Positions 9,459-51,451 of a stretch of 58,947 nt of DNA are shown piece by piece. Source of the DNA: an uncultured Clostridia bacterium. GTDB lineage: Bacteria; Bacillota; Clostridia; Oscillospirales; Oscillospiraceae. The stretch covers positions 1 to 58,947 of the forward strand of contig CAMGRL010000009.1 of the NCBI GenBank assembly GCA_946061515.1, written 5' to 3'. Numbering within the stretch: the stretch's first letter is position 1; every line of letters begins with the position of its first letter. A program made the translations under genes and the position numbers. Under the pieces are notes generated by a model, which was not told the DNA's origin, did no database searches, and worked only from the letters and a program-made list of their open reading frames with translations.

Positions 9459-9504
9459 CCTTCCCCTCTGAGGGGAAGGTGGCCAGGAGGGCCGGATGAG
9501 GTGC
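9459..9504 (+). repeat. solo B-type two-hairpin repeat
   Basis: CTTCCCC pairs with GGGGAAG, followed by a second small hairpin (GGCC/GGCC-like) and a GGATGAGG tail. This is one half (form B) of the paired palindromic repeat seen complete just downstream. A GGGCGGCC/GGCCGCCC hairpin follows near 9514-9534. Confidence 0.6.
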
Positions 9505-9562: not shown

Positions 9563-9678
9563 GGCTCCCCTTGTCAGGGGAGCTGGCTGCCCGTAGGGCA
9601 GTCTGAGGGGTAGTCAAAGGTAGCAACGAGGCAAACCCCTCCGCCCCTTTCGGGGCACCTCCCCTGTTAGGGGAGGCT
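9563..9678. repeat. paired two-hairpin repeat, A-left/B-right, empty
   Basis: The left half (form A) has GGCTCCCC/GGGGAGC, then a second stem GCTGCCC/GGGCAGT, then CTGAGGGG. A spacer of about 20 bases follows. The right half is the reverse complement of form B: CCCCTCCG, GCCCC/GGGGC, then CCTCCCC/GGGGAGG. It looks like a MITE-type element of about 116 bp with no gene inside. With the solo copy upstream it fills the 322-base gap between the transporter and the surface protein, apart from the terminator. Confidence 0.7.
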
Positions 9679-9774: not shown

Positions 9775-11958
9775 TTATCTGTCAGCCTTTTTCTTTTTGC
9801 TCACGGTGGCCGTGGTGATCACGGCGGCGGCGGCGGACAGGGTGAACAGTGCAAACCACAGGGCGATATTGCTGTCATCGCCGGTACCCACGGTGCCCAG
9901 CTTCGCGATCTCTGCCTTCTCCGTATAGCCGCAGACTGTGCAGGTATGTTCCTTTTCGCCCTTGGCGGTCTCGGTGGCCTTCCTGGTTACCTTCCACTCG
10001 CCGTATTTGTGGGCTTCCTTGTTCTGGATGTCGCCGCAATCGCACTCGTCCCAGTGGTTGGTCTTGTCGTACTTCTGGGTGTAGTCATGGGTGTGCTCCA
10101 GCACGGGAATGGTTTCCGTCTGCTTATAGTCGCACACCGTGCAGGTCCGCTCCCGCTGGCCCTCTTCCGTCTCCGTGGCCGCCTTGGTCACGGTCCAGTC
10201 GCCGTATTGATGGAGCTCCTTGTTCTGCACATCTTTGCACGCGCACTCGTCCCAGTGGTGTGTGGCGTCGTGCTTCAGCTCGTAGGCGTGGTCGGTGTAG
10301 GTGTTGGTGAAGGTCATATCCGCCTTCTGCAGGTTCTCCCAGTCGATGGTATAGTTCCCCTGGCCGTCGATGGACGCGGGCACGACATACACGATATATC
10401 CCGATGCATTCGCATCATCGCCCATTGCGTACGCGACGGGGATCTCCTCCATCAGCACTCCCCAGACCGTATCGTCCACCGTCCAGCCGTCCTCGCCTGC
10501 GTTCACCTGCTGCACAAACGCGCCCTCGGAGAGCATGTACCAGAGCTGCCGTTCCGGGCCGGTGATGGTCAGGGCGCCGGTATAGTCGCCCGCGCCGTCG
10601 GTCGTGACCGCGGCGGCGGCCGTCACGTTGTCCGCGGTCAGTGCCGCGCCGCTGCCGTCGATCAGCGCCAGCTCAAAGGTCGTCTCGCCCGGCTCGCCCG
10701 CGTCGCCCAGGGCCACGGTGGTGGTGAAGGGGACGGTCAGGGTGATGATCTTTTCAAAGACGGGATAGATCGTGACGTCCTGATCCGCGGTATATGTGGC
10801 GCCGAGCTTGTAGACTGCGCCCTCCTTGTCCACCCAGCCGGTCTGGACGAAGCCGTCCATGGTGAAGGTCTCGCCGCGCAGGGTGAGCGGCTCGCCGTGG
10901 GTCTTGGTGTCCATGCAAATGGGATCATCGCCGCTGCCGATATATTCCACGATGTACTGCTGCACCGCGCCGCAGCCGCAGACGCCGTCCACGTAGAGGT
11001 GCTCCGGCGAGACCTGAACGCGCTTGGTGGCGGATACAAACTGCTGATCCGCCGTATATCCATATACGCTCAAGTCAAAGTAGTTCGTATTCAGGTCGTA
11101 CCACTCCGTAAGCATCACGCCGTGCCCAACGCCGTTCTCATCGATCGTCAGATCCACGCCGCTGCCCTTGCCGCCGGTGTCAAATCCGAACCCCTTGTCG
11201 AGGGTCACACCCTCCGGCGCCGTGGCGGTGAATTCGTAGTCCTGCTGCGCGCAGACCACATCCGGGCCGTCAATGGTGAGCGGCGGCATCGGCGGCGTGC
11301 CGAGGGTACATATTATCTGGAGCTGAATCGGCACACCATCTCTGGTTGCAATCATACAATATTCCGGCGTCCTGCCGTTCACGGTGACAGCCGGTGGTAT
11401 ACTCAGTCCTTTGTTGTTCAGTTCGAGTTCGAGAGAATAGGTCGTGCCAGCCTCGAACGCTTCGGTTTCACTTATGTTCTGCCCCTCGGGGTACTCTGCT
11501 TCTTTTACCCATGTAACAAAAAGAATATCGTCTTCGCTGAAGGTGACGCCCGGGATCGTGGATTCGAAGCTGTAGGTGCAGTCGGCCGGCGTATTGCCCA
11601 CCTCGAAGCCGTCGACCGTGATGGCGAGGCTGCCCTGCACCTGATAGACGGCGTCAAAGGTCAGGTCATTGTCCGGGTTCACATTGATCTCTGTATCGGG
11701 CTCATAGACCGTCCCGGAGCCGCTCTCCTTCCAGCCCACGAATTCGTAGGGCGCGCAGTTCTCGACGTGGCCGAGGTTGAATAAGTCCCCAATTTCAATA
11801 CTTAACACATAGGGGCTCGGTTCATCGCCCGCACGGCAGAACGTGCCGTACTTGAAATTCAGCGTGACCGTACGGTAGTCATCCGCAAAGGCCGCCACCG
11901 GGCAGAGCATCAGCACCATGCACAGGCACAGCAGAATACTCAAAACGCGTTTTTTCAT
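9775..11958 (-). CDS. large cell-surface protein with pilin-like domain and C-terminal anchor
   Basis: Secreted, wall- or membrane-anchored protein of 727 residues. The signal peptide is MKKRVLSILLCLCMVLMLCP with AFADD as cleavage region; the ATG at 11958 is used because it begins this signal and has a GAGAGGAAA SD. A segment ending MTFTNTYTD (about 545-595) resembles streptococcal pilin isopeptide-linkage domains. It is followed by two copies of a repeat of about 65 residues with the pattern HxxxxHHWDECxCxDxQNKExH...YGxW...CTVC. The C-terminus is GTGDDSN, a hydrophobic helix and KKKKADR, like a sortase signal without a clear LPxTG. Function is unknown; adhesion is a guess. Confidence 0.85.
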   Translation of the reverse strand: MKKRVLSILLCLCMVLMLCPVAAFADDYRTVTLNFKYGTFCRAGDEPSPYVLSIEIGDLFNLGHVENCAPYEFVGWKESGSGTVYEPDTEINVNPDNDLTFDAVYQVQGSLAITVDGFEVGNTPADCTYSFESTIPGVTFSEDDILFVTWVKEAEYPEGQNISETEAFEAGTTYSLELELNNKGLSIPPAVTVNGRTPEYCMIATRDGVPIQLQIICTLGTPPMPPLTIDGPDVVCAQQDYEFTATAPEGVTLDKGFGFDTGGKGSGVDLTIDENGVGHGVMLTEWYDLNTNYFDLSVYGYTADQQFVSATKRVQVSPEHLYVDGVCGCGAVQQYIVEYIGSGDDPICMDTKTHGEPLTLRGETFTMDGFVQTGWVDKEGAVYKLGATYTADQDVTIYPVFEKIITLTVPFTTTVALGDAGEPGETTFELALIDGSGAALTADNVTAAAAVTTDGAGDYTGALTITGPERQLWYMLSEGAFVQQVNAGEDGWTVDDTVWGVLMEEIPVAYAMGDDANASGYIVYVVPASIDGQGNYTIDWENLQKADMTFTNTYTDHAYELKHDATHHWDECACKDVQNKELHQYGDWTVTKAATETEEGQRERTCTVCDYKQTETIPVLEHTHDYTQKYDKTNHWDECDCGDIQNKEAHKYGEWKVTRKATETAKGEKEHTCTVCGYTEKAEIAKLGTVGTGDDSNIALWFALFTLSAAAAVITTATVSKKKKADR

Positions 11959-12879: not shown

Positions 12880-13011
12880 GGCTCCCTTGTGTAAAGGGAG
12901 CTGCCGCCGGAGGCGGCTGAGGGATTGTTCTTCTTGGTTACGCTGGGCAGGAAAGGCAACCCCTCCGTCTCCGCCTGCGGCGGAGCCACCTCCCCTTACA
13001 CAGGGGAGGCT
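12880..13011. repeat. paired two-hairpin repeat, A-left/B-right, empty
   Basis: Same design as the copy at 9563-9678. The left half has GGCTCCC/GGGAGC, a second stem GCCGCC/GGCGGC and CTGAGGGA. After about 40 bases the inverted form B follows, with CTCCGCC/GGCGGAG and CCTCCCC/GGGGAGG stems. No gene lies inside. It occupies most of the 353-base gap between the TetR gene and the dehydrogenase; the rest is the TetR promoter and a terminator. Confidence 0.72.
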
Positions 13012-20056: not shown

Positions 20057-20096
20057 TGCTATTATGACATGCGGCGCAGCTGCAGACCGCCTCCTT

Positions 20097-20550
20097 GGCT
20101 CCCCCTACGGGGGAGCTGTCACCGAAGGTGACTGAGAGGGCCTTGCAGGCGCTTTTGAATGGTAATATCAATTTGTGTGCACACGCCACGAAAATCTCTG
20201 TCAATATCCCGATTGGAAAATCGCAAAACATCCAATCCCAGAGCGGATAAGAATGCGGAGCGTTCTACATCATAGGCCATCCCCTGGGGCTCATAGTGTT
20301 GAGAACCATCCAATTCAATAACTAACTTGGCAGAAGCACAATAAAAGTCTACGATAAATCTCCCGATGATTCGCTGTTTATAAATCTTCACCGGATATTT
20401 GCGGAGGAAAAGATACCAGAGCTTTCGTTCGTGGGGTGTCATCTCCCTGCGTAACCGCCGGGCGTTTTCCAGTTGGCTGTTGTCCTTTGGTATGGTCATG
20501 TTTTTCCCTCTCAGTCGGCTGCGCCGACAGCTCCCCCAAAGGGGGGAGCC
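20097..20550. mobile_element. DUF559 gene framed by inverted two-hairpin repeats
   Basis: A 454-bp unit. The left arm (20097-20140) is a form A repeat: GGCTCCCCC/GGGGGAGC hairpin, second stem GTCACC/GGTGAC, then CTGAGAGGG. The right arm (20506-20550) is an inverted form A copy whose second stem is GTCGGC/GCCGAC. Between them lies only the DUF559 gene on the minus strand. Its SD (GAGAGGG) is the inner end of the right arm and its stop codon lies inside the left arm. The layout resembles a minimal transposable unit. No target-site duplication could be fixed by eye. Confidence 0.6.
20119..20499 (-). CDS. DUF559 / Vsr-like endonuclease-domain protein
   Basis: 126 residues of the DUF559 family, related to very-short-patch-repair and PD-(D/E)XK nucleases. 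Visible landmarks are ARRLRREMTPHERKLWY (about 13-29), FIVDFYCASAKLVIELDGSQ (about 48-67), with the metal-binding D and E-x-D, and DVLRFSNRDI near the end. The core thus looks intact. The ATG at 20499 follows GAGAGGG contributed by the repeat; the frame stays open to 20808 but that stretch is translated repeat DNA. The last codons lie in the other repeat arm. Family function is unproven; here the context suggests a link to repeat mobility. Confidence 0.85.
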   Translation of the reverse strand: MTIPKDNSQLENARRLRREMTPHERKLWYLFLRKYPVKIYKQRIIGRFIVDFYCASAKLVIELDGSQHYEPQGMAYDVERSAFLSALGLDVLRFSNRDIDRDFRGVCTQIDITIQKRLQGPLSHLR

Positions 20551-20650
20551 AAGTTCCGCGCGTAACGCACTACACCAAACGGTGTATAGAAGTGCGCCCT
20601 TATCTGTTCGGCAAACTGGAAGTTGACGTACTGGCAGCAAAGCCTCTCTT

Positions 20651-20738
20651 GCCTCTCCCCTTGGGAGAGGTGCCCCCATAGGGGGCGGAGAGGGCCCTCT
20701 CAGTCGGCTGCGCCGACAGCTCTCCCAAAGGGAGAGCC
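20651..20738. repeat. paired two-hairpin repeat, B-left/A-right, no spacer
   Basis: Form B (20651-20694) has CCTCTCCC/GGGAGAGG and CCCCC/GGGGG stems and ends CGGAGAGGG. It directly abuts an inverted form A (20695-20738) with second stem TCGGC/GCCGA and CTCTCCC/GGGAGAG. With the DUF559 unit to the left it makes 20097-20738 a repeat cluster. About 100 bases between the two show no gene. The 387-base gap from 20500 to 20886 thus holds the right arm, this repeat and a terminator. Confidence 0.7.
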
Positions 20739-20802
20739 AAGTGCGCGATAACTTCCGATTTATAGGTCTGTTCGGGTCCATACTATCATATAACAGGATA
20801 AT

Positions 20803-41601: not shown

Positions 41602-41789
41602 GGGTTTGAACGCCCTATTTTGACTGCGTGTGCAGCTCTCCATATTCTTAGCTGTACACAGCTTTAACAAGGAGGAGTATGAACATCCCCTGACTCGGGG
41701 TGCGGCAGTGTGGAGACCTGTCGTAATGCGGGAGGCTTTGCCCCCGCGAGGTCACTCAGGCGGAGGCCGTTTGACCGGAGTCGGAAAGC
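41602..41789 (+). promoter_or_regulatory. structured 5' leader of msmK pairing with its SD
   Basis: A first hairpin pairs GTGTGCAGCT (41628-41637) with AGCTGTACAC (41650-41659). Then AAGGAGG and an ATG-AAC-ATC-CCC-TGA mini frame (41679-41693) follow. A nested set of helices closes the rest: CC-GACTC-GG (41689-41698) with CC-GAGTC-GG (41775-41784), CGGC with GCCG (41703/41766), AGTG with CACT (41707/41753), ACCT with AGGT (41716/41749) and GCGGG with CCCGC (41728/41743). The outer helix contains the msmK SD GGAG (41777-41780). I recognise no known riboswitch class. Confidence 0.6.
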
Positions 41790-42968
41790 ATGGCAACTGT
41801 AACACTGAAAAACGTCAAGAAGATCTATCCGTTCGTCAGCGGAGAGGGCAAGAAGAAAAAGAAGAAAAAGGACGAGCCCGAAGAGAAGAAGGTCAACCTT
41901 CAGATCACCGATCAGGGCGTCGTCGCCGTTCAGGAATTCAACCTGGACATCGCGGACAAGGAATTCATCGTTCTGGTCGGACCTTCCGGTTGCGGCAAGT
42001 CCACCACCCTGCGTATGATCGCCGGTCTGGAGGAGATCTCCGATGGCGAGCTGTACATCGACGGCAAGCTGATGAACGACGTGGCTCCCAAAGACCGCGA
42101 CATCGCCATGGTCTTCCAGAACTACGCTCTCTACCCCCACATGACCGTTTATGAAAACATGGCTTTCTCTCTGAAGCTGCGCAAGGAGAAGAAGGATGTT
42201 ATCGACAAGAAGGTCCGCGAGGCCGCAGAGATCCTGGACATCACCCAGTACCTGGACCGCAAGCCCAAGGCTCTGTCCGGCGGCCAGAGACAGCGTGTGG
42301 CCATCGGCCGCGCTATCGTCCGTGACCCTGCCGTCTTCCTTATGGACGAGCCTCTGTCCAACCTGGACGCAAAGCTCCGTAACCAGATGCGCGCCGAGAT
42401 CATCAAGCTGCGCGAACGTATCAATACAACCTTTATCTATGTTACCCACGACCAGACCGAGGCTATGACCCTGGGCGACCGTATCGTCATCATGCGCGAC
42501 GGTTACATCCAGCAGATCGGCACGCCGCAGGAAGTGTTCAACAATCCCCGCAACCTGTTCGTCGCCGGCTTCATCGGCACGCCGCAGATGAACTTCTTCG
42601 ACGCCAAGCTCACCAAGGAGCAGGGCAGGTACTTCGTGGAGCTGGGCGGCGTCAAGGTCGAGCTCAGCGAGGAGAAGCAGCAGCGTCTGGCCGCCAACAA
42701 CGTTGAGCCTCAGGAAGTCACTCTGGGCGTTCGTCCCGAGCACACCACCCTGGGCGACACTGGTATTGTTGCCAAGGTCGACGTCTCTGAGATGATGGGT
42801 TCCTCCGTCCACCTGCACGTCACCGCAGAGGGCAGAGACGTGATCATCATCGTCCCCACCCTGGAGATGAAGGGCAACTACGGCATCGGCGATACCGTAC
42901 ACTTCAACTTCGAGGGCAATGTGGCTCACGTCTTCAGCAAGGAGACCGAGCGCAACCTGGAGTGGTAA
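41790..42968 (+). CDS. msmK: MsmK/MsmX-type sugar ABC transporter ATPase
   Basis: 392 residues, the ATPase type (MsmX, MsmK, UgpC, MalK) that energises several carbohydrate importers. Walker A is GPSGCGKST (about 65-73), the Q loop is in VFQNYALYPHMTVYENM, the signature is LSGGQRQRVAIGRAI and Walker B is FLMDEPLSNLDAKLR. The C-terminal TOBE region (VTLGVRPEHTTLG) is present. Residues about 18-40 form a Lys/Glu-rich insertion (GKKKKKKKDEPEEKK) before the first core strand, absent from classical MalK. No sugar-binding protein or permease lies nearby, in keeping with a shared ATPase. It has a long structured leader. Confidence 0.93.
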   Translation: MATVTLKNVKKIYPFVSGEGKKKKKKKDEPEEKKVNLQITDQGVVAVQEFNLDIADKEFIVLVGPSGCGKSTTLRMIAGLEEISDGELYIDGKLMNDVAPKDRDIAMVFQNYALYPHMTVYENMAFSLKLRKEKKDVIDKKVREAAEILDITQYLDRKPKALSGGQRQRVAIGRAIVRDPAVFLMDEPLSNLDAKLRNQMRAEIIKLRERINTTFIYVTHDQTEAMTLGDRIVIMRDGYIQQIGTPQEVFNNPRNLFVAGFIGTPQMNFFDAKLTKEQGRYFVELGGVKVELSEEKQQRLAANNVEPQEVTLGVRPEHTTLGDTGIVAKVDVSEMMGSSVHLHVTAEGRDVIIIVPTLEMKGNYGIGDTVHFNFEGNVAHVFSKETERNLEW

Positions 42969-45667: not shown

Positions 45668-45722
45668 TATGCCATTCTCCTTACAAAACAGACCCTCAAG
45701 TCGAAAGATAACGCATTCCAAA

Positions 45723-45928
45723 GCCTCCCTCTGATGAGGGAGGTGGCAAAAATCTTTGATTTTTGACGGAGGGAGAGAAAAGGATGGCCGGTGGTGTATG
45801 CAAATACATTGCTTTGACCGTCAGACACCTCTCCCTCAGTCAGCTTTGCTCGACCACCACAGGCGTAAGTTTGGCTTAGCGAAATCGAAGATTTCGAGCC
45901 TCACTTAAGCTCCCTCGTTGGCAAAGCC
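45723..45928. repeat. paired two-hairpin repeat, interrupted copy
   Basis: The left half is form B: CCTCCCTC/GAGGGAGG, second stem AAAAATC/GATTTTT, then CGGAGGGAG. The right half begins as inverted form A (CTCCCTCAGTCAGCTTTGCT), but about 55 bases with their own hairpin (CGAAATC/GATTTCG) stand between it and AGCTCCCTCGTTGGC. With the hairpins to the right it fills the 539-base gap between uraA and the nup genes; no gene is seen there. Confidence 0.6.
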
Positions 45929-51317: not shown

Positions 51318-51356
51318 ACAAAAACAAAAGCGCAAGAAGCTTTCTGTTTCGCTTTT
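51318..51356 (-). terminator. riboswitch expression-platform terminator
   Basis: Read leftward, AAAAGCG (51350-51356) pairs with CGCTTTT (51326-51332), followed by GTTTTTGTTT. It lies immediately 3' of the purine aptamer. A further strong hairpin, ACCGGTCAC/GTGACCGGT (about 51279-51311), lies between it and the nupN SD. Confidence 0.75.
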
Positions 51357-51357
51357 T

Positions 51358-51422
51358 CGATAGTCCGGTCATTTACGGTGTCCGGGTAGAAACTTCAAAT
51401 CCATATTATTTGCTTTATATCG
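51358..51422 (-). promoter_or_regulatory. purine riboswitch, guanine type
   Basis: The minus-strand RNA has P1 CGATA/TATCG and the core words TATGG, GAAGTTTCTACC and ACCGTAAAT in the right order and spacing for a purine aptamer. The 3' joining segment reads GGACTATCG; the C in ACTA is the specificity base, so guanine/hypoxanthine rather than adenine. It precedes the nupNOPQ importer. Aptamer, terminator and promoter together fill the 384-base gap between nupN and xpt; nothing is seen from about 51481 to 51593. Confidence 0.93.
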
Positions 51423-51451
51423 AAGTGATGTGTCCAGTTGTTACAGGATAT

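Follow-up and report, generated by a model that had tools for sequence, protein, structure and literature searches.

The window analysed here is a 58,947-nt stretch of DNA from an uncultured Clostridia bacterium of the family Oscillospiraceae, contig C9 of a source assembly of 2.22 Mb in 118 contigs (81% complete). It contains a small gene of the DUF559 family (PF04480) enclosed by two inverted repetitive extragenic palindromic (REP) sequences (Table 1). Each repeat is composed of a C-rich outer hairpin (hairpin 1), a short linker, a variable inner hairpin (hairpin 2) and a purine tail facing the gene. The two copies, at 20098-20132 plus tail on the plus strand and 20514-20549 plus tail on the minus strand, are 83% complementary over 40 nt. 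An earlier note on this DNA had placed the gene between two inverted repeats, with its Shine-Dalgarno (SD) sequence as the inner end of one repeat and its stop codon inside the other, and the coordinates bear this out. The 5' repeat terminates on its inner side in the SD-like GAGAGGG (20512-20506, minus), the gene runs from an ATG at 20499-20497, and its stop codon at 20121-20119 falls within hairpin 2 of the 3' repeat. The window protein matches PF04480 with an E-value of 5.5e-30 (103.9 bits against a curated cut-off of 20.6). Its predicted fold matches I-Bth0305I and Vsr and qualifies as Vsr-like; the gene product is a predicted single-domain Vsr-like PD-(D/E)XK nuclease. The unit is probably a miniature mobile element, whose nuclease would recognise the two-hairpin repeats of its own subtype at the ends of the unit.

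Gene-less relatives of the repeats had been proposed near 9563, 12880, 20651 and 45723, and all four are real, each being an inverted pair arranged tail to tail. The last is an internal deletion of a second type of DUF559 element, represented by two full units, 94.5% identical, on contigs C12 and C4 of the window genome; these two units have some flank in common on both sides, partly a second repeat family. The same internal body is found in five miniatures of 133-164 nt, on contigs C17, C31, C6 and C38 and in the window. Both ends of the C12 and C4 units are retained in four of the five; in the window copy the outer right end is missing. The common body and the shared ends suggest that these copies spread as miniatures; some of them also have flank in common with a full unit. 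The genome as a whole contains 76 matches to a GAGGG-type REP pattern, against one for a control pattern. Among 120 adjacent REP pairs in the fetched loci, DUF559 regions included, the tail-to-tail order is in the minority (27, against 54 tandem and 39 head-to-head), so that this order holds as a rule for the units and the four window pairs only.

The framing of DUF559 genes by repeats extends to relatives of the window gene. The family is present in 48 of 102 genomes of the genus, in which 93 DUF559 places were read and 91 were usable; a few loci appear twice among these 91 rows, and two loci with another DUF559 class in very long reading frames (L099 and L100, >1,500 codons) are excluded from the counts. 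By our own heuristic REP finder, 30 of the 91 loci have a repeat pointing at the gene on both sides, 39 have one 5' and 51 have one 3', whereas for 101 control open reading frames (ORFs) of the same loci the corresponding numbers are 1, 15 and 9. None of 43 other ORFs in the window is framed by inward REPs, and repeats on both sides in any orientation occur at 41/91 DUF559 loci against 7/101 controls. A repeat-blind score of the inverted repeat between upstream and downstream flanks gives a median of 20 over the 91 rows, with shuffles averaging 10.0 (99th percentile 15, maximum 17); 54 of the 91 loci reach the framing threshold of 18. Pairings of the upstream flank of one locus with the downstream flank of another score high as well (mean 13.1, 95th percentile 25) because several loci have repeats in common. 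In a further set, made of the best 80 of 563 relatives, an inverted repeat frames 43 of 73 distinct loci (46/79 with the six that duplicate genus loci) against 4 of 196 other ORFs, and 16 of 27 DUF559 loci from other genera of the family score at least 18. The enrichment over control ORFs (30/91 against 1/101 and 43/73 against 4/196) indicates that the framing is no coincidence. The possibility, raised in the earlier note, that most homologues lack the repeats thus does not hold within this group; outside the Clostridia the framed share is lower.

Every nuclease subfamily is associated with a particular repeat subtype and with how abundant that subtype is in the genome. The subtypes, defined by hairpin 1 and tail, include CTCTCCC/GAGAGGG (the window type), CTTCCCCTTGAGGGGAAG/GATGAGGTG, CCCCCTTGCCTAAAGGGGG/GGGGGATTC and CTCCCTCTGATGAGGGAG/GAGGGAGAGA, and they group by clade on the DUF559 tree, as judged by eye. 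Dereplication at 75% identity left 33 of the 60 loci whose repeat was usable, and among these, protein and repeat distances are correlated (Mantel r 0.46, reached in 0/9,999 permutations). In genomes with several units, the closer repeat belongs to the nearest protein relative in another genome in 32 of 34 cases. The window genome and a related genome (G033) each contain a window-type unit and a unit of a second type (that of locus L003), and both repeats and proteins match across the genomes rather than within them. Counts of patterns for two subtype groups in the 102 genomes give a median of 25.5 REP matches in genomes with DUF559 and 4 in those without (p 1.5e-8), and each group is enriched only together with the matching DUF559 type (45 against 3, p 1.6e-6; 19 against 2.5, p 0.007), although these p-values are optimistic since genomes and loci share ancestry. 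Crossed tests of each group against the non-matching DUF559 type in the same genomes are not significant. As a separate observation, hairpin 2 looks modular: the cores CCCAGTGCGCACACTGGG, ACGGCGCGTCTCACGCAAGCGCCGT and CAGCGAAGCTG recur across different subtypes of hairpin 1 and tail.

The unit constitutes one block that ends at the repeats and is found at different sites, with internally deleted copies and gene-less pairs beside it. Among six related units (80-87% identical), similarity ends in most pairs no more than 7 nt from the outer hairpin 1 edge; for some pairs it extends up to ~40 nt further or ends short of the edge. The comparison of orthologous sites, which rests on one genome per species, revealed empty and filled sites, which the earlier note had proposed to look for between strains, together with sites holding a lone hairpin. 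At the window's own site, one relative (G033) has the unit and another (G088, locus L379) only the outer palindrome CTTGGCTCTCC-TTTT-GGGAGAGCCAAG. A lone hairpin 1 also stands in genome G022 (L123) at the site of the L076 unit, and in the window's genome a miniature occupies the site of the L091 unit. None of the six relatives read has an insert at the L014 site; at the L016 site, three relatives have nothing and a fourth has one REP. Depending on the species, the gaps before two genes that we take to be rnhA and a ksgA-like gene are occupied by full units (of more than one subtype), by pairs of REPs, by lone hairpins that are degraded or by other inserts, or are empty. The strongest duplication signals in a scan of 54 units (10 against 4.6 at 2 nt and 6 against 0.8 at 3 nt) were rejected as target duplications, being asymmetric and drawn from a wide scan.

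We infer that movement would be catalysed by DUF559 itself. The nuclease would nick or cut the repeats, probably while these are extruded as hairpins or single-stranded in the course of replication. The unit so released, or its gene-less relatives, would then be rejoined elsewhere; the sites read closely are intergenic gaps. Gene-less pairs would use the enzyme in trans. Lone outer hairpins may be scars of excision or deletion, or targets as they were before insertion. Many bacteria have abundant palindromic intergenic repeats without a known mover. If the proposed role of DUF559 is correct, such repeats gain an enzyme, in the form of one small nuclease family that follows them subtype by subtype; DUF559 genes gain a function, and the movers of bacterial mini-elements a new class of nuclease, unlike the known transposases.

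Several observations weigh against this reading. Inward REPs on both sides are missing at 61 of the 91 genus loci, 14 of which have no REP on either side, and 30 of the 73 further loci fall below the inverted-repeat threshold. Several REP-less DUF559 genes are syntenic between species, and for this reason look fixed. Eight of 42 REP-poor genomes have DUF559 and 5 of 32 REP-rich ones (at least 25 REPs) lack it, two of the latter being 93% and 97% complete. REP-rich genomes lacking the gene, which the earlier note had named as evidence to the contrary, thus exist; the others have it, and DUF559 tracks REP number. The five exceptions fit a loss after spread and disfavour a strict need for DUF559. 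Some paralogous units have 14-130 nt in common beyond the repeats, the variable states of the sites fit gain or loss alike, and no consistent target duplication was found in 54 units (2-9 nt, 81 end offsets). The samples count here as well: the REP finder is a heuristic, the shared ancestry flatters the p-values, and the 80 further loci come from named assemblies, nearly all of them Clostridia, and are not a random draw.

That no target duplication was found would also fit a homing element, with DUF559 cutting lone palindromes (hairpin 1) that pre-exist at many sites and the unit, like the miniatures, copied in by repair of the break, in the manner of free-standing homing endonucleases. The predicted fold is close to that of the homing endonuclease I-Bth0305I, lone hairpins stand at two sites where relatives have a unit (L379 against the window, L123 against L076), and degraded ones are found at the rnhA site. 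However, the L014 and L016 sites are plainly empty rather than occupied by lone palindromes, and a lone hairpin is equally explained as the scar of a deletion between two inverted hairpins. We regard homing as unlikely.

Still less probable is a passenger role, in which another enzyme moves the repeat pairs and DUF559 is cargo, perhaps a nuclease of defence or repair. A candidate for such an enzyme is the Y1 transposase of the REP-associated tyrosine transposase (RAYT) family, genes for which occur in 56 of the 102 genus genomes; the five REP-rich genomes without DUF559 and weak PADLOC matches of DUF559 also agree with a passenger. But the presence of Y1 shows no link with REP number in the 102 genomes, and in genomes without Y1 the effect of DUF559 on REP number persists (23.5 against 4.5, p 0.002). 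RAYT was accordingly rejected as the mover. The units are only 448-814 bp long even with neighbouring REPs counted (30 units), so that another gene would hardly fit, and the subtype-specific pairing of nuclease and repeat, with matching abundance, likewise disfavours a passenger. It is highly improbable that the repeats are terminators or messenger RNA hairpins common in intergenic space with a small gene among them by chance, as the abundance of REPs in the genome might suggest, given how few control ORFs are framed, the orientation of the repeats towards the gene, their co-variation with it by subtype, and units and miniatures that end at the same repeats.

The reading of the unit as a mobile element with its own nuclease brings it close to REPIN/RAYT (TnpA-REP) systems, or REPtrons. 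In those parts of the literature that were available (PMC3116915, PMC8266576, PMC6006769), REPtrons are described as palindromic intergenic repeats in inverted pairs, dispersed in the genome, and a nuclease gene flanked by cognate repeats with subtype-specific pairing. The DUF559 unit is REPtron-like and shares these features, but lacks the defining enzyme and foot of a REPtron: it has DUF559 and no Y1 HUH transposase gene, and no GTAG or CGTC foot was found within 8 nt outside hairpin 1 at any of 108 ends (54 units). Its repeats are built of two hairpins with a mirror tail, and the gene-bearing unit is found at different sites, whereas tnpA-REP is mostly single copy and evidence for its mobility is lacking, according to the available part of PMC8266576. 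The suggestion of the earlier note, a RAYT-like logic served by a different, Vsr-like nuclease, is strengthened by the cognate pairing, the miniatures, and the empty and lone-hairpin sites. IS200/IS605 elements, whose Y1 TnpA acts on hairpin ends, differ from the unit, which has no Y1 gene. The unit's gene has the predicted fold of Vsr and of the Vsr-like (EDxHD) homing endonucleases such as I-Bth0305I in a different setting, as it lies outside any intron or intein, between genes, with inverted repeats on both sides and gene-less copies besides. At gathering level, Rfam found no group I intron in the window, and only a malK-I RNA and a purine riboswitch. Miniature inverted-repeat transposable elements with an autonomous partner are comparable in that the internally deleted copies have the ends of two full units; the DUF559 unit differs from them in having no DDE transposase, and no target duplication was found in the 54 units. 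Our literature searches found no publication that links DUF559 to repeats, the accessible portions of PMC8836110 and PMC12907096 included, and the portion of PMC3733652 at hand contains none of the clostridial terms looked for.

The tail mirrors the 3' arm of hairpin 1, i.e. it is that arm reversed but not complemented, with T allowed for A. In 12 hand-picked families, represented by one sequence each, the mirror match is 7.5/9 against 5.5 with swapped tails (0/20,000 swaps reach it), and over 97 distinct repeats it is 6.43/8 against 5.06. Ordinary antiparallel pairing between tail and 5' arm was rejected for hairpin 1 (5.12 against 5.17 swapped). By analogy, the mirror purine tract might serve as the third strand of a purine triplex, or make a guide contact as at IS200/IS605 cleavage sites, for which the available part of PMC8266576 describes a guide-like contact; we offer this as a suggestion only. 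The two ends of the units also tend to differ in form. Form B, with C-G closing hairpin 1, is found at 57 of 77 5' ends and form A, with G-C, at 70 of 88 3' ends, giving the B...A arrangement in 34 of 54 units (six duplicated loci are included in these counts).

Outside Clostridia, 16 loci on plasmids were picked from 44 records, and 9 of them are framed, with scores of 27-100 (shuffle 99th percentile 20; eight control ORFs at most 19). The framed loci belong to Azospirillum lipoferum, Sphingomonas parapaucimobilis (two), Deinococcus (three), Pseudanabaena, Qipengyuania and Sinorhizobium meliloti, and framing is absent in the other seven (A. brasilense, three; Azospirillum TSH58; Picosynechococcus; Sinorhizobium M103; Shinella). 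Two E. coli records from the plasmid listing, with scores of 20 and 21, were rejected as the sequence is not REP-like. The Deinococcus repeats are reversed, with the tail outward as judged by eye, and the genes lie at three places in the same hpa catabolic cluster of three plasmids (L347, L348, L349), on the opposite strand; a Sphingomonas plasmid has its DUF559 gene between sufB and sufC. No strain-level empty site was seen in S. meliloti among 40 of 158 records, and a search for plasmid DNA relatives of the window unit gave no match. A score of at least 18 is reached in 12 of 68 viral contigs, one of two phage records and 2 of 26 loci of a phylum sample. On a faecal phage scaffold (MT835756.1, locus L270, 1-700), inverted repeats frame a DUF559 gene with 65% identity to the window protein.

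In E. coli K-12, the DUF559 gene is ycjD, whose stop codon lies in a degenerate C-rich hairpin. Symmetric repeat framing at ycjD is absent, and the repeat 3' of it consists of a hairpin and a mirror tail, the same form as the REPs. This repeat, found at a median of 19 places per E. coli genome (E up to 1), is presumably Box C. Box C is credited with 22 to 32 copies in the available part of PMC2267715. Strain N3 has another gene in place of ycjD. For E. coli, plasmids and viral contigs, eight families picked by hand give a mirror match of 7.6/8 against 6.6 (p 0.0005), taken as the best of several offsets over low-complexity purine tracts and with the other framed plasmid and viral loci excluded. 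We tentatively propose, with somewhat more doubt than trust, a bacteria-wide class in which a single-domain Vsr-like nuclease moves C-rich hairpin repeats and the mirror purine tail is selected through a guide- or triplex-like contact with the hairpin. This class would include repeats without a mover, such as Box C with ycjD, and would thereby become testable in E. coli K-12.

Table 1. Repeats, genes and RNA features of the window
Feature	Position	Strand	Remarks
Complete DUF559 unit, outer REP edge to outer REP edge	20093..20554	-	462 bp
DUF559 (PF04480) nuclease gene	20119..20499	-	126 aa + stop
5' REP	20506..20554	-	hairpin 1 outer, hairpin 2 inner, purine tail GAGAGGG as SD
3' REP, inverted	20093..20142	+	hairpin 2 contains the stop codon of the gene
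Gene-less tail-to-tail REP pair (form B + form A) adjoining the unit	20648..20741	.	repeats 20652-20686/20703-20737
Gene-less tail-to-tail REP pair	9564..9676	.	repeats 9564-9603/9643-9676
Gene-less tail-to-tail REP pair	12881..13009	.	repeats 12881-12917/12969-13009
Miniature derived by internal deletion from the genome's second type of DUF559 element	45718..45850	+	right REP degraded
Single REP, GATGAGGTG subtype	9459..9493	+	a further repeat, of another subtype
malK-I RNA	41620-41795	+	Rfam
Purine riboswitch	51341-51442	-	Rfam

Other sequences share the surroundings of the units. In other species the same gaps seem to be used by a second family of mobile repeats, made of runs like GTGGCCAGTGG or ATTCACTATTC that flank a small hairpin in inverted order (L109, L110, L112, L115, L121 and L128-L130, at the rnhA and ksgA-like sites and the L074 site). 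A second dispersed repeat (GTGCGAAATCGCAC ... GAACGGYGTACAAAAGTG ... GTTCGGCAAA, with variants) lies on the outer side of several DUF559 units and miniatures, namely in the flanks of L002, L003, L387 and L388 and at 20555-20640 of the window. In E. coli, the sapF-fabI gap upstream of fabI contains ycjD, an SMI1/KNR4 gene or efflux-pump genes in three strains (L359-L361). Within the window, a 176-nt stretch is present at 9915-10291 in two direct copies, 72% alike and 201 nt apart.
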